Assembly: GCA_016930435.1 (NCBI GenBank)
Contig: JAFGGQ010000025.1
Coordinates: 1 to 11,757, forward strand
DNA length: 11,757 nucleotides
Direction: 5' to 3'
Source of the DNA: a bacterium
GTDB lineage: Bacteria > UBP14 > UBA6098 > JAFGQG01
Shown here in pieces: positions 5,280 to 10,878 of this stretch. The notes beneath the pieces were generated by a model. The model saw nothing but the letters and a program-made list of their open reading frames with translations, was not told the origin of the DNA and made no database searches. How positions within the stretch are numbered: position 1 is the first letter of the stretch; every line of letters starts with the position of its first letter. A program made the translations under genes and the position numbers.

Positions 5280-5317
5280 CGCCCTTCCTTGTATTATTAA
5301 ACTTAACTCTTTACTTG

Positions 5318-5342
5318 ATTATACATAATAAAATGCATTTTA
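5318..5342 (-). promoter_or_regulatory. Possible dapA -10 box with adjoining 14-bp palindrome
   Basis: On the minus strand a TATAAT lies at 5323-5318, about 40 bases upstream of dapA. Immediately upstream of it, 5329-5342 is a perfect palindrome (TAAAATGCATTTTA), sitting where a promoter spacer would be. No good -35 is found at 16-18 bases, so promoter strength may depend on an activator, or the palindrome may be a repressor operator. No lysine riboswitch fits in the short leader. Confidence 0.35.
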
Positions 5343-5395
5343 CTCTTTTATCAACAATAAAATAATGAACTTTAAAATACTTGATAATTTTTCAC

Positions 5396-5423
5396 TTGCA
5401 TCCTTATGCTATCTGTGTATATT
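5396..5423 (+). promoter_or_regulatory. Sigma70-type promoter of the 6S-like RNA
   Basis: TTGCAT (5396-5401) and TATATT (5418-5423) are separated by 16 bases; an alternative -10 (TATTTA, 5420-5425) gives an 18-base spacer. Seven bases after the -10, at 5431, begins the first paired base of the RNA closing stem, just where transcription should start. The promoter points away from dapA, so the two are divergently transcribed from a shared ~120-base region. Confidence 0.65.
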
Positions 5424-5430
5424 TAGCATA

Positions 5431-5612
5431 GAGACAGGAGAGAGGATAAAAGAACCTCTAACACCTAAACAATGAAGGTTGTCCCTCGGGGTTGAGGATT
5501 CAGCCACGACCTCTTCGAGAGCGAGCGAACCTAAGACACCTCAAGCGATGTTAAATCCTTTAATATGTTGTATAGGGAGGTTCTTAACCTCTCGCTCTCC
5601 TGTCTCCTTTTT
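5431..5612 (+). ncRNA. ssrS: Probable 6S RNA (RNA polymerase-binding regulator)
   Basis: A ~180-nt RNA fits a rod with an internal bubble. The ends close by GAGACAGGAGAG (5431-5442) with CTCTCCTGTCTC (5595-5606), 12 perfect pairs. AAGAACCTC (5450-5458) with GAGGTTCTT (5577-5585) adds 9 more. An apical arm forms by AGGTT/AACCT (5476-5480 with 5528-5532), CTCG/CGAG (5485-5488 with 5516-5519) and GAGG/CCTC (5494-5497 with 5510-5513). Between the arms the 5' side (about 5459-5475) is unpaired. The 3' side carries a small 8-bp hairpin (5548-5566, loop TCC), as seen on the 3' side of the E. coli 6S bubble. Length, shape, own promoter and U-tract match 6S RNA, which mimics an open promoter and sequesters the housekeeping RNA polymerase in stationary phase. 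The assignment is by structure, not by sequence match. Another structured RNA class is possible, but a coding role is not. Confidence 0.68.
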
Positions 5613-5614
5613 TT
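5595..5614 (+). terminator. Terminator of the 6S-like RNA
   Basis: The 3' strand of the closing stem (5595-5606) is followed by C and seven Ts (5608-5614). The stem partner is the RNA 5' end, so this works as a terminator by long-range pairing. There is no comparable T-tract on the minus strand, which fixes the direction of transcription as plus. Confidence 0.6.
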
Positions 5615-5775
5615 AAAAATTGCTTCAAAATCATTACTGTCAATTCCACCCTTCAATCCGCCTGCTAATAAACTTATCAGTAGTCTGAGAATTTATTGTT
5701 TAAGGTGAATAAGCATTTATTCATGCTCAGGATGATTACCAAAGAAATTCTATTAAATGCAGTTTGCCTTCGGAG

Positions 5776-7803
5776 CTATTTCAGCAACATGGTCTTTTTG
5801 ATGATCCTGTTTTCGCCGAAATGAAGGACTATGAAATAGAGCCCCGATGCAACAAAGTTGGCGTTTATATTCTCACCATCCCAGACCACCTTGATCAATT
5901 CGTTTCCGGAAGCCCTCCCCTCTCCCAGAGATTTTATTTGATTTCCGAGCAGGTCATAGACCAAGAGGCGGTATTCCCCTTCCGGTGGTTTTGCGCTTAC
6001 GGTGGTCCGGCTATTGAAAGGATTAGGAAAAACCTGAAGCAATTCTATATTACTTGGTTTTTGATTGACGAGCTCTTCAACTGCCAAGGTATATCCGAAC
6101 CATTCCAATATTCTTTGCATCAGTGTACTGCGGCTGCCAGGGCTGTCAATGGCTTCGTATCCAAAAGCAAGATATACCACCTTCGAGATACCGTTATTCG
6201 CCCTAATACCCCCGCAGATCCCGGCAGAGTAATTAAAGATAGGGGTTGCAATGCCCCATGGGTCGATCTCGGAGGGATAAAGCTGGTTATCTGCCCCGTC
6301 GCCACCTGAGATTGTTATATTCAGCCCATCGGTGATGGGATCACCGGGTACTCCGCTCAGGGTATGATCATCGGTATCATCATCAACGAAATCCGCATAG
6401 AGATAGCTGTTCAGAAAATCGCAGGAGCCCGTTCCATAAGCGGTTCCATTAGCATCACAGAGATCCCAGCCGATATCCTGACCGGTAATAAAGAGCTTCC
6501 CACCGCTATCCAGAAAGGTTATCAGAGCCTGACGGTCAAAGGCGGTCAGCGTAGGGAAAGACCATCCAGCGAACCAAATCACTATAGGGGCTGCTGACAG
6601 ATCCTCGCCAGTAGGGGAAGCCATGGCAGTATTCCAAAGCTGATATTCTGCTCCCAGTGCATCCAGAGCATCAGTAAAATAGTGATCATAATCATCATCA
6701 CCATCATCTGAAACCACAAGTATTTCAGGATTATTTAACAAATAATAGGTGATCTCATTGCTATGAGAAGGCATAGTGGAAGATGCTACCGTAACCGAAA
6801 TATACCCCGTTCCCGCAATACCATGCGTATTGAACTTGATTTGGATAGAGTCCGAAGTGTGGCCCGGAATTGTCAATGTAGAGGTACCCGTGAATTCCCC
6901 AGCTCCCGTGATATATGAGAATACCCATCCCGAGGGCACGGAGTGTCCTGTAATGTCGATCTGGTAATCATCACTTGCGCTTCCCATGTTCTGTATATAA
7001 GCCTTGACCAGTTTAATTAGGCCAATATTACAGGTCATTGTTTGCAGTGAAAAATACCGGTGATTTACCAAGGGGACCGCATGGTCGGAAACACATTGCA
7101 CAACTTCCCGGGTATCATCATCCTGTACCCAGGCCACCACATTAAGATTGCCTGCACTCCAACCGGGATTCAGGGTTATTACCCTGTTGAAATACTGGGT
7201 ATCGGGAGCGGCGGAAAGATCAAGTAAAATTCCGGACCCGCTGGGCACCAAATCCCTCATAATATCGTCAAAGTGGGTTAACCCGTTCGGAGCTGAATAA
7301 TTAATATTGCTTTCGGTGACTGCTATACGCAAACGTGTATCGCTGGCTACCGGACGGTCCACATAAATGGACACAAATATAGAGCAAGTGGTACCCGCTA
7401 TATGCTTGTAAGCTTCAAGCCTCAAGGGTGAATCCTTCCCAAATCGGGCAAATAAACCATTTACCATCTCCGAAATATTACCTGCATTAGGAGCATAATA
7501 ACCGTCCTCAATCACGGTAGGGGCAGAATCTACACCATAGTAAGAAATACGGTTTATATTTTCCGATGTATTGGCAGAATAGAACGGATCAGTGGAAGAG
7601 GGCCAGTAAACATGATACTCCAGATGCACCATATCATCGTAGGCATAATCTCCTATAACCGAGTTTATAGAGGGTTGAGCAGAAGCGCAAGGTGCGCAAC
7701 TGGTGTTCGAAAATTGTTCAAAAAGAACGATTCTGGGAAAAGCAAAAGCGTTAACTATCAAGCCTGATATCAGAAGCAATATAGTGGAAAACTTTTTATT
7801 CAC
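5776..7803 (-). CDS. Secreted Omp28/thioredoxin-like and amidotransferase-like fusion with sorting domain
   Basis: The 675-residue product has a signal peptide (1-21, ending NAFA). Residues about 23-240 resemble the Omp28-related thioredoxin-like fold: IVLFEQFSNTSCAPC carries a redox-type C36-A-P-C39 motif, and SAPTV (93-97) supplies the expected cis-proline. A beta-rich linker (about 250-355) leads to a class I glutamine-amidotransferase-like alpha/beta domain (about 360-574). That domain opens ILVVSDDGDDDYD and contains FLDSGGKLFITGQDIG; the usual nucleophile-elbow cysteine is Q442, so amidotransferase activity is not expected. The tail from FPNPFN (592-597) is a type IX-type sorting domain ending TMLLK. 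The start is GTG (7801-7803), seven bases after AGAGGA (7811-7816), which overlaps the stop of the upstream gene and suggests translational coupling. Likely extracellular; the CAPC pair could have thiol-disulfide activity, but the substrate is unknown. Confidence 0.87.
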   Translation of the reverse strand: MNKKFSTILLLISGLIVNAFAFPRIVLFEQFSNTSCAPCASAQPSINSVIGDYAYDDMVHLEYHVYWPSSTDPFYSANTSENINRISYYGVDSAPTVIEDGYYAPNAGNISEMVNGLFARFGKDSPLRLEAYKHIAGTTCSIFVSIYVDRPVASDTRLRIAVTESNINYSAPNGLTHFDDIMRDLVPSGSGILLDLSAAPDTQYFNRVITLNPGWSAGNLNVVAWVQDDDTREVVQCVSDHAVPLVNHRYFSLQTMTCNIGLIKLVKAYIQNMGSASDDYQIDITGHSVPSGWVFSYITGAGEFTGTSTLTIPGHTSDSIQIKFNTHGIAGTGYISVTVASSTMPSHSNEITYYLLNNPEILVVSDDGDDDYDHYFTDALDALGAEYQLWNTAMASPTGEDLSAAPIVIWFAGWSFPTLTAFDRQALITFLDSGGKLFITGQDIGWDLCDANGTAYGTGSCDFLNSYLYADFVDDDTDDHTLSGVPGDPITDGLNITISGGDGADNQLYPSEIDPWGIATPIFNYSAGICGGIRANNGISKVVYLAFGYEAIDSPGSRSTLMQRILEWFGYTLAVEELVNQKPSNIELLQVFPNPFNSRTTVSAKPPEGEYRLLVYDLLGNQIKSLGEGRASGNELIKVVWDGENINANFVASGLYFIVLHFGENRIIKKTMLLK

Positions 7804-7814
7804 TATAATATCCT

Positions 7815-10808
7815 CTACTTTAGTAAAAGTACTTTCTGCTGTTTTGCATATCCATTATAGCTTAATTTCAAAATAAATACTCCCGAAGTAAGTCCGCCGG
7901 CATAGAGCGTTTCTCCATTCCACTGGAAAGTATAGTATCCCCGAGGATGGAATCCTAAATTTTCTTTATAAACAACTTTTCCGCCGAGATCGAATATTTC
8001 AATAGTCACATTACCCTCTTCCGGCAAAGCATAGGATATTGAGGTAGATGGATTAAATGGATTGGGATAATTAGGCCCTACCTCGAATTTCACCGGAAGA
8101 TTATGAGAAACCCTCTTTAATCCAAGGGTAGGATTGCGGAAAAGCACCGTCATGGAATCACCAGGAATACCTTCTTCAGTGAGGGGATAAAGATCGTGAA
8201 AATACTGTAATCCTTCGGTTCCATCAACATTCTCCATCCCGATCGTAGCCTCGGGAATGCTGGCTTCAATATCAAGGAAGTTAAAGAGAATATCGGGATT
8301 CCAATGGCTCTCTCCTAACAATACCACCTGGAAGCTGACCGGATGGGCAACATCCTCTTCGTTGATAACATTTTTCCATTCGATTATTATCCGGTCATTT
8401 CGGGTATCTTCATAAAAAATCACCTTGCCCATAATAGCTCCTGTGCCCCGAATAAGATCGCACCACCAGGGATAGAGAGCCAGATTAGGAGCACCCGGAC
8501 TGGGAACCTGGTTATATACGTAGGGATCGGATATAAGGGCGGTATTGAAGGTTAACCAACCATTCATTGCCACTCTGAGCTGATAATAAAGCGTACCAAA
8601 ATAATTAATAGCGGATGAAAAAGTCAGCACCTCCGAAATTTCATCATCATCTATATCCAGTTCATACCCGTCACCGCCTTCGGATGGGTCTATCTCTATC
8701 CATTCAAACAGTGGCGCCCAGGCACTGTCGGAATAGGAATCGACGTAATAGTACCCTCCCGGACCCGGGCCAAAAAAGTGGGGATCCCTTATCATAATTC
8801 TAAAAACATTTCCCGGTGCGCCATAAGGGAGAGATGACCAATTAAGCGCTTCGCTCAGGTCTTGAGCCTTAAAATAATACTTTAATTCCTGACCGCTTAG
8901 GAAGCCCGTAAGGGTATAATAGAATTGCTCACCCACGGATGAATCTGAACCTACCGAAATATATGGATTCGCTCCGATGCTGTAGCACAGGGAATCCAAT
9001 CCCACACCCGATTCATCCGAAATACGGGCAGAAATCACCAGGGGATCCATACACGGCAAGATCATATCCGGAGGGGTATGGTTGATCACGGGGCCGCTCA
9101 AATCAACCATATCAGGGGGATAGAACATAATAGCAAATTCCGGGAACAGTGGGTTGCTGGGAGGATTGTTCTCACACTGATAAGCCAACCCCACCATACC
9201 TTCCTGGTCCTCAATGCCCACCGTAGCCGATTTCCCGAAGCTATGATCGCTCGCCGAAGGGGTCTCAACATCAGCATAATTCAGTTTGATCCGGCCGTCC
9301 TCATATAATACGATCTCGAAAGTCACCGTTTCAGTAGTGGAACTGAATGGCAAGTAGGCATTTTTGTAAATGATGTGAAATTTCCTTTCCGGTATCAGTC
9401 CGGTAACCTTGGTATAAAGGCCGGGCCGGGGACTTAAAGTAGTATCGAAATTCATATCATCCCATAATCCTGTAATTAGTGCATTTGGGACCGCGGACGC
9501 GGGAAAGCAATAGTTGGTTACCCCGGAAACAGTTAACGGTAAGAAAGATATAAAACCGTTGGTGGATGCGTAAACAGTATCATAAGTCCCCCGGTAAAAA
9601 TGGAATGGAAATGGCAGTGGTATGGAAATCGAATTATCATCACCGTACAGCCCCATCAAAAAGGCTCCGGAAATACTGACAGGGGTGTATTCCGGACCAC
9701 CTGGATGATAGGAATCTTTCCAAAGATAGCCGAGGCTGTCAGGCCCCCCTTCTGTATAATGGATAAACGCAGCAGACCGTTTCCGCAGAGTATCATTAAC
9801 TGGCCAGACATCAAGGGTTGGATCGATAAATGCAGTTATCATCACAGACCCCTCTTCGGCTGCAACCCATTCCCTGAAAGAAACGGTATCGGTGCTTCCC
9901 GCGAACATGTCAAAGACTACCGTATCCGAATATATGCTCTCCCCTCCTTCACCTTGAATAACCAGATAACCGGGGATATTTATCATTTCGTACTCGCCAT
10001 TATTACGGCAGACCATCCGGGGAGTTGTTCCTATACCCACCAATCCGATTCCGGCGGGAAGGTTAATTTCCATAATACCAGCATCATAATGAAAACTGGG
10101 TACACTGAATTTCAGAGCCATATTATTCCTGAGTGTGGAATCATTGTAACTGTATTGAAGTCCGATAATACCATTTATGTTTTCCACCCCGATGGTTGCA
10201 GAACGGCCAAAGGAATTGTCATCCGATGCAGATTCCACATCCAGGTACTGGATCAAAATCTCGCCATCCCCCTCGGAACACTCATACAATGTTACTTCAA
10301 AGCTGAGGGGATTTGTAACGTCCGAATACGGATAATATATATTGGACCAGATAATTGTAAATCGGCGGGAAGGACTGCTTCCTTGCATCTTGGTAAAGAC
10401 CCATGAATTTCCCTCAGAACCTCGGATCCTGCCATCATCCCAATGCGGGTAAACAGCATTATTGGGGAAGTTCGTATGGGGAACTGGCTGGTTTAAATAA
10501 GAAGTCGCGCTGGTATCCGAAAAAGTCAACAGACCATTATCGGTGACATAAACCAGGTTATAGCCCCGTCCATAAAAACGGAAAGTAAAAGGGATAATAA
10601 TCTCGATTTGGATATCATCCCCAACATCAGAGCTGCCAGAAAGCCGGGTTGCCCCTGCAGTATCCACCCAATCGAACTCCACCATAGCTTCCCGGTCATC
10701 ACACCAGACATAACCATAAGCATCGGGTCCGCCGCATTCTCCCCAGAGCAAAACGGGCAGAAGGAAAAACAGAGCGCTCATCAAATAAATAGTCATAATT
10801 CTTTTCAT
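7815..10808 (-). CDS. Large surface protein with three repeated beta domains and NPFN sorting domain
   Basis: The 997-residue product begins with a signal peptide (MKRIMTIYLMSALFFLLPVLLWG). Three homologous ~210-residue beta domains lie at about 27-237, 355-564 and 681-893. Each runs 'G..Y..VD/DS', 'FPF.FY', 'Y..V.ASTNG.I.F', 'P..L..WDD', 'F.I.WKN', 'FEV.LYE.G.I...Y.D.E' and 'SATIGIEN..G..GL.Y'. The segments between them look like CARDB-type (about 240-345) and Ig-type (about 570-672) beta sandwiches. The last 84 residues, from YPNPFN (914-919), are a type IX-type sorting domain ending KVLLLK. A TTG at 10854-10856 could add 16 residues, but the ATG at 10806-10808 is preferred: GGAGGT (10819-10824) lies ten bases upstream and the signal peptide starts there. 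The next gene begins 11 bases after the stop. Probably a surface adhesin, stalk or matrix component; no catalytic motif is seen. Confidence 0.88.
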   Translation of the reverse strand: MKRIMTIYLMSALFFLLPVLLWGECGGPDAYGYVWCDDREAMVEFDWVDTAGATRLSGSSDVGDDIQIEIIIPFTFRFYGRGYNLVYVTDNGLLTFSDTSATSYLNQPVPHTNFPNNAVYPHWDDGRIRGSEGNSWVFTKMQGSSPSRRFTIIWSNIYYPYSDVTNPLSFEVTLYECSEGDGEILIQYLDVESASDDNSFGRSATIGVENINGIIGLQYSYNDSTLRNNMALKFSVPSFHYDAGIMEINLPAGIGLVGIGTTPRMVCRNNGEYEMINIPGYLVIQGEGGESIYSDTVVFDMFAGSTDTVSFREWVAAEEGSVMITAFIDPTLDVWPVNDTLRKRSAAFIHYTEGGPDSLGYLWKDSYHPGGPEYTPVSISGAFLMGLYGDDNSISIPLPFPFHFYRGTYDTVYASTNGFISFLPLTVSGVTNYCFPASAVPNALITGLWDDMNFDTTLSPRPGLYTKVTGLIPERKFHIIYKNAYLPFSSTTETVTFEIVLYEDGRIKLNYADVETPSASDHSFGKSATVGIEDQEGMVGLAYQCENNPPSNPLFPEFAIMFYPPDMVDLSGPVINHTPPDMILPCMDPLVISARISDESGVGLDSLCYSIGANPYISVGSDSSVGEQFYYTLTGFLSGQELKYYFKAQDLSEALNWSSLPYGAPGNVFRIMIRDPHFFGPGPGGYYYVDSYSDSAWAPLFEWIEIDPSEGGDGYELDIDDDEISEVLTFSSAINYFGTLYYQLRVAMNGWLTFNTALISDPYVYNQVPSPGAPNLALYPWWCDLIRGTGAIMGKVIFYEDTRNDRIIIEWKNVINEEDVAHPVSFQVVLLGESHWNPDILFNFLDIEASIPEATIGMENVDGTEGLQYFHDLYPLTEEGIPGDSMTVLFRNPTLGLKRVSHNLPVKFEVGPNYPNPFNPSTSISYALPEEGNVTIEIFDLGGKVVYKENLGFHPRGYYTFQWNGETLYAGGLTSGVFILKLSYNGYAKQQKVLLLK
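8130..8768 (-). repeat. Third internal beta-domain copy of the 997-residue protein
   Basis: Protein residues about 681-893. Shared landmarks with the other copies are YYQLRVAMNGWLTF, NLALYPWWCDL, IIIEWKNV, VSFQVVL and EATIGMENVDGTEGLQY. It is the most diverged of the three and has an acidic insertion (YELDIDDDEI) in the first half. Confidence 0.75.
9117..9746 (-). repeat. Second internal beta-domain copy of the 997-residue protein
   Basis: Protein residues about 355-564. Landmarks are GGPDSLGYLWKDS, LPFPFHFY, TVYASTNGFISF, NALITGLWDD, KFHIIYKNAYLPFSS, VTFEIVLYEDGRI and GKSATVGIEDQEGMVGLAY. It begins about 328 codons after copy 1 and copy 3 begins about 326 codons later, so a beta domain plus linker forms a regular module. 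Confidence 0.8.
10098..10730 (-). repeat. First internal beta-domain copy of the 997-residue protein
   Basis: Protein residues about 27-237. Landmarks are GGPDAYGYVWCDD, IPFTFRFY, LVYVTDNGLLTF, NAVYPHWDDG, RFTIIWSNIYYPYSD, LSFEVTLYE and GRSATIGVENINGIIGLQY. It is closest to copy 2. Confidence 0.8.
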
Positions 10809-10818
10809 ATCGGATATT

Positions 10819-10824
10819 ACCTCC
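10819..10824 (-). promoter_or_regulatory. Ribosome binding site deciding the start of the 997-residue gene
   Basis: On the minus strand GGAGGT lies ten bases before the ATG at 10806-10808, slightly longer than ideal spacing. No comparable site precedes the in-frame TTG at 10856, so the ATG is chosen. Confidence 0.7.
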
Positions 10825-10878
10825 CTGGGAATACTTTCCCTTGATTTATAACCCAAATCACTTATTCGAGATAGATTT

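Follow-up and report, generated by a model that had tools for sequence, protein, structure and literature searches.

RNA gene and control elements

The window, i.e., the entire analysed stretch of 11,757 nucleotides, contains a plus-strand RNA gene at positions 5430-5614, which lies beside dapA and consists of a structured part of about 178 nt followed by a U tail. Its features are as follows, all on the plus strand:

5396..5401, plus strand: -35-like hexamer TTGCAT, read from the sequence (CACTTGCAT is kept in G001)
5418..5423, plus strand: -10-like hexamer TATATT, read from the sequence, 16-nt spacer from TTGCAT
5430..5614, plus strand: RNA gene (fold z = -4.04; a single homologue in each of 15/17 and 118/132 genomes)
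5431..5442, plus strand: 5' strand of P1, pairing with 5595-5606 (12 bp; cognate-arm energies)
5450..5459, plus strand: 5' strand of P2, pairing with 5576-5585 (double-sided changes in 7/7 modelled pairs)
5460..5472, plus strand: 5' side of the central bubble, opening with a conserved AACA (alignments)
5473..5478, plus strand: 5' strand of P3, UGAAGG, pairing with CCUUUA at 5557-5562 (A-U to G-C in four cells)
5479..5482, plus strand: 5' strand of P4, pairing with 5545-5548 (88% of cells paired)
5488..5492, plus strand: 5' strand of P5, GGGGU, pairing with ACCUC at 5538-5542 (double-sided changes in 5/5 pairs)
5493..5537, plus strand: apical region, made up of a small hairpin that is conserved (GUUG-G.. 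element), a second one that differs in length and an AGCGA element (alignments); almost missing in family f2
5538..5542, plus strand: 3' strand of P5, ACCUC, partner of GGGGU at 5488-5492
5545..5548, plus strand: 3' strand of P4, partner of 5479-5482
5557..5562, plus strand: 3' strand of P3, CCUUUA, partner of UGAAGG at 5473-5478
5563..5575, plus strand: 3' side of the central bubble, able to pair with the 3' strand of P2 in some relatives, not in the window
5576..5585, plus strand: 3' strand of P2, partner of 5450-5459 (covariation)
5595..5606, plus strand: 3' strand of P1, partner of 5431-5442
5608..5614, plus strand: U7 tail (terminator) directly behind P1, T7 read from the sequence

As read from the window sequence, 7 nt (5424-5430) separate TATATT from the first paired base, G5431, so the sigma70-like promoter that an earlier note on this DNA had placed 7 bases ahead of the structure is indeed present (TTGCAT-16-TATATT-7-G5431), as are the 12-bp closing stem, the 9-bp second stem and the 7-T tail that it had described. 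Most homologues (see below) likewise carry a TATATT- or TATACT-like box upstream, and in 39 of 48 homologues, five or more consecutive T follow within 60 nt of the core, often after a separate hairpin; in a few, the T run lies upstream of the 3' strand of P1. The locus is a free-standing, single-copy structured RNA gene that extends from a sigma70-type promoter to a U tail. Its description as the only plus-strand gene is reasonable, since all gene-like long open reading frames read on the minus strand. Three of these minus-strand frames (588-1610, 5776-7803, and 7815-10856) code for large secreted-looking proteins with a C-terminal sorting-like domain (YPNPFN...G.Y..K), which resembles that of type IX secretion cargo.

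Homologues and distribution

A BLAST search revealed a single relative from the same family, G001, with 79% identity and also divergent from dapA. Every pair of P1 and P2 is preserved between G000 and G001, including one compensatory change from A-U to G-C. A covariance model (R1) that was built from both sequences and had P1 and P2 as its only paired elements gave matches in 15 of the 17 genomes of the window's phylum (best E-values 1e-52 to 0.02), and the two genomes without a match are fragmented assemblies of 83 and 74% completeness. A core model (R2) recovers the same 15 at E-values of 1e-15 to 1e-26 and adds five further carriers among 386 genomes, all of them outside the window's phylum; note that the filters were tighter in searches covering over 40 genomes and that the model E-values stem from short calibrations. 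Two of the five, G024 and G311, belong to one second phylum, where 118 of the 132 genomes each give exactly one match to model R3; the others, G073 (L071), G152 (L067), and G160 (L072), are lone carriers from further lineages. The RNA thus occurs in about 136 genomes from two phyla and three further lineages, and its description as an orphan is refuted. The homologues have a conserved core in common, CUyUAACA...AUGAAGG...GUUG...UAAAaacCCUUUA, and the sequence comparisons identify the dapA-side RNA as a real, old RNA gene family.

Neither R2 or R3 nor the 6S model RF00013 gave a match in 14 genomes of the second phylum, G172 among them, or in G014 and G015 of the window's phylum; these may contain a more diverged copy or may have lost the RNA, a few of the assemblies being about 100% complete. 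No match to the RNA was found on plasmids. Several matches were discarded: a BLAST match in G004 (L005) is due to chance, lying antisense within a coding region; the exact-pattern matches L050 and L052 (one of them a viral contig) are not the RNA, and L051 is G001's own contig; and the antisense R1 matches L033, L034, and L041 result from the self-complementary stems and disappear with R2.

The RNA gene is divergent from dapA without overlapping it in G000 and G001 (family f1). A recA-like gene lies convergently downstream, with its 3' end close by, in ten loci of families f2-f4 (L053, L058-L062, L065, L066, L068, and L069), a synteny that has been lost from the window's genome or was never present there. 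Other neighbours include acpS, pdxJ/coaE, and rho, among others, and only a minority of the homologues are followed by a gene of the same orientation; the names of neighbouring genes, beyond those obvious from motifs, were read from the sequences. These changing neighbours argue against both a leader and a connection with lysine synthesis, and the special link to a lysine-synthesis operon suggested earlier does not hold, since most of the other homologues in the window's phylum are convergent to recA and the rest are found elsewhere.

Fold and covariation

The minimum free energy (MFE) of the predicted fold amounts to -63.1 kcal/mol, compared with -45.6 +/- 4.3 kcal/mol for 200 dinucleotide shuffles, none of which equalled it (z = -4.04). 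An open central bubble of 13 x 13 nt lies between two helical arms, and the interior inside the second stem measures 118 nt. The core of P2 (5450-5458/5577-5585) comprises 9 bp and is extendable by U5459-G5576. For the RNA of the window, a fold with P1, P2, and P3 lies at most 2 kcal/mol from the MFE, and the complete fold with P1-P5 is about 5 kcal/mol less stable than the MFE.

In the alignment of 48 homologues, which was fitted to the covariance model and therefore favours the structure of the model, 86.9% of the cells of the 23 core pairs contain a standard pair, compared with 42-55% when the partners are slid by one to three columns. Double-sided changes occur in 73 cells versus 34.9 +/- 5.4 in shuffles, and none of 500 shuffles reaches 73; the significance of the covariation is taken from these shuffles, which preserve column make-up but not relatedness. 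In this alignment, P2 exhibits double changes at all seven modelled pairs, while P3 is paired in 99% of the cells, with four compensatory cells and double changes at two pairs. P4 is paired in 88%, its changes being mostly one-sided between G-C and G-U, and P5 shows double changes at all five pairs, albeit in a weaker part of the alignment (79% paired). P1 lies outside the model and was assessed by arm energies, which are -21.4 kcal/mol with the own arm compared to -14.0 kcal/mol with the arms of other sequences; the values in a set of 20 sequences were -20.0 and -12.6 kcal/mol, respectively. As judged from these 48 homologues, stems 1, 2, 3, and 5 are backed by compensatory changes, which include those sought for the two originally proposed stems, P1 and P2.

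The small 8-bp hairpin proposed on the 3' side of the bubble (5548-5566) fared differently. It is part of the single-sequence MFE structure and paired in 78% of the cells of the 48 homologues, but its covariation score is reached by 67 of 500 shuffles and is not clearly above them. It also competes with P3 (5473-5478/5557-5562), with its 99% pairing and four compensatory cells, and was dropped in favour of this conserved helix. A small open reading frame at AUGAAGG was rejected as well, because the ends of the frame differ among the aligned relatives; P3 would account for the conservation of this motif.

Comparison with Rfam families

A scan with 4,227 Rfam families yielded nothing at the gathering threshold in the whole window and only chance-level matches at E <= 10 in the region 5280-5760, and the Rfam models showed no match in 13 further homologous loci at E <= 1. 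In particular, the RF00013 covariance model of 6S RNA does not match in the window (E <= 10), in the 13 homologous loci (E <= 1) or in the 17 genomes, and in the reverse direction R2 and R3 give no match to E. coli ssrS. The model for 6S-Flavo (RF01685) found nothing in the window, the 13 loci or any of the 17 genomes, although the control genomes were likewise silent in the genome search, and Bacteroidales-1 (RF01693) had no match in the Rfam scans of the window or the homologues. The comparison with the 6S and Bacteroidales-1 models proposed in the earlier note therefore gives no membership in RF00013, RF01685, or RF01693, and no strong match to a different RNA family appeared among the 4,227 either. 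Its expectation that automated tools might miss the RNA was justified, as the annotation lacks it and Rfam does not match it. These searches place the dapA-side RNA in a new RNA family that is absent from Rfam.

Discussion

6S RNA has been described as widespread in bacteria and is apparently missing from some phyla. The new RNA resembles 6S RNA (RF00013; E. coli ssrS, B. subtilis 6S-1) in its length of about 180 nt and in its shape, a rod with a closing stem, an open central bubble and an apical arm within 160-200 nt, and it has its own promoter. Unlike 6S RNA, with which it shares no covariance match either way, it contains small side hairpins in an apical arm of strong sequence conservation. 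Of the 6S interpretation proposed earlier, the conserved RNA gene and the rod-and-bubble geometry have thus been retained, while the match to the RF00013 model has not.

The near-constant presence of a single copy throughout two phyla befits a housekeeping RNA, and the distribution of the two RNAs adds to this picture, the new RNA sitting in genomes without detected RF00013. Of 386 genomes, 198 yielded an RF00013 match (169 of these over the cut-off), yet the 20 carriers of the new RNA in that set were all without one, as were the 132 genomes of the second phylum. In the window's phylum, SRP RNA was present in 13/17 genomes and tmRNA, over the cut-off, in 14/17; their presence in most genomes indicates that missing assembly is not the cause of the absence of 6S. 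Both are separate genes that also occur in G000, which speaks against the new RNA being a divergent SRP RNA or tmRNA. Counted by lineage, there are about five independent cases (the two phyla, G073, G152, and G160), corresponding to an inferred chance probability of only a few per cent, so the mutual exclusion with 6S is suggestive, but no proof.

Within the RNA, the 5' strand of P2 is more conserved than the 3' strand (1.28 versus 0.87 bits), and the same applies to the 5' side of the bubble relative to the opposite side (0.93 versus 0.51 bits), as expected if the 5' strand serves as a template. Furthermore, the 3' side of the bubble pairs with the 3' strand of P2 better than shuffled bubbles do (p <= 0.04) in 7 of 20 homologues, for example as UCUCCC-UUAU-GGGAGA in L065. 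This arrangement, which competes with P2, is the one releasing E. coli 6S RNA once pRNA synthesis unwinds P2 (PMC8876501). A general release hairpin was nevertheless rejected, since the pairing is confined to this subset and is formed neither by the RNA of the window nor by the majority of the relatives tested.

The new RNA family most likely plays the part of 6S RNA in these phyla, a reading to which we assign a probability of about 0.45. The sequence data establish the gene, its structure, its conservation and its distribution; we infer expression, polymerase binding, a product RNA and release, which would proceed as follows. The rod, composed of P1-P2, the open bubble and the P3-P5 arm, would mimic an open promoter and hold the RNA polymerase with the primary sigma factor as growth slows. 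On return of nutrients, the polymerase would copy the 5' side of the bubble and the 5' strand of P2 (...CUCUAACA) into a short product RNA starting approximately with GUUAGAG, which would unwind P2 and so set the enzyme free. The 3' strand of P2, once unpaired, may then fold into the hairpin with the 3' side of the bubble in some relatives.

An Ms1-like or other function is nearly as likely as a 6S-like one. The RNA may be a new structured housekeeping RNA rather than a 6S-type promoter mimic, e.g., an Ms1-like binder of core polymerase, a part of another RNP, or an RNA with a catalytic or ligand-binding apical arm, a serious alternative that we rate somewhat below an even chance. Such a role would fit the strongest sequence conservation, which is found in the apical arm and J4/3 (AUGAAGG, GUUG.G, UAAAaacCCUUUA) and not in the bubble alone, as well as the single-copy and near-universal occurrence in two phyla and the lack of a relationship to any of the 4,227 Rfam families. 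By itself, however, it leaves unexplained both the lack of detectable 6S in all carriers and the added conservation on the 5' side of P2. It is also known that a 6S-like shape can be misleading: the partner of Ms1 is core polymerase lacking sigma, and Str11 associates with neither form of the enzyme (PMC9130861). Ms1 of Actinobacteria is structurally related to 6S and occurs in a phylum without detected 6S (PMC9130861), which parallels the situation described here, but it is about 300 nt long compared to about 178 nt, and no Ms1 match was found. 6S-Flavo and Bacteroidales-1 are similarly lineage-specific RNAs that were first overlooked by ordinary annotation, although neither model matches the window or the homologues; 6S-Flavo is regarded as carrying out the 6S function (PMC2864571). 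A categorically new RNA class, whose apical arm would act other than by promoter mimicry and whose presence would exclude canonical 6S, is given close to an even chance. As to the arm itself, in L068 and L069 of family f2, whose core measures 101 nt, only a few bases remain of the apical part between the P5 strands, suggesting that the apical side hairpins are dispensable for the role of the RNA.

A trans-acting base-pairing sRNA, in which single-stranded CUCUAACA or ACACCU stretches would pair as C-rich seeds with the ribosome-binding sites of many mRNAs, appears improbable: the conserved and partly unpaired CUyUAACA at the junction of P2 and the bubble would suit this role, but the C-rich stretches are mostly within conserved helices, and a fixed architecture across phyla is rare for such sRNAs. 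Still far less probable is that the RNA acts in cis on the dapA operon (as a leader or an antisense RNA) or is a mere terminator. The divergent orientation in G000 and G001 would be compatible with it, whereas the lack of overlap with dapA, the ten loci of the phylum convergent to recA, the different neighbours elsewhere and the restriction of a same-strand downstream gene to a minority of loci largely refute it.

The favoured 6S-type reading and its alternatives concern an uncatalogued RNA, one copy of which occurs in about nine out of every ten genomes in two phyla, precisely in lineages that show no Rfam 6S. If it is a true counterpart of 6S RNA, it would illustrate the extent to which such an RNA can diverge in sequence without losing its role, and would close a gap in the transcription control of these lineages. 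Otherwise, it would represent a broadly conserved RNA with another role. Either way, the covariance model enables its annotation in these genomes.
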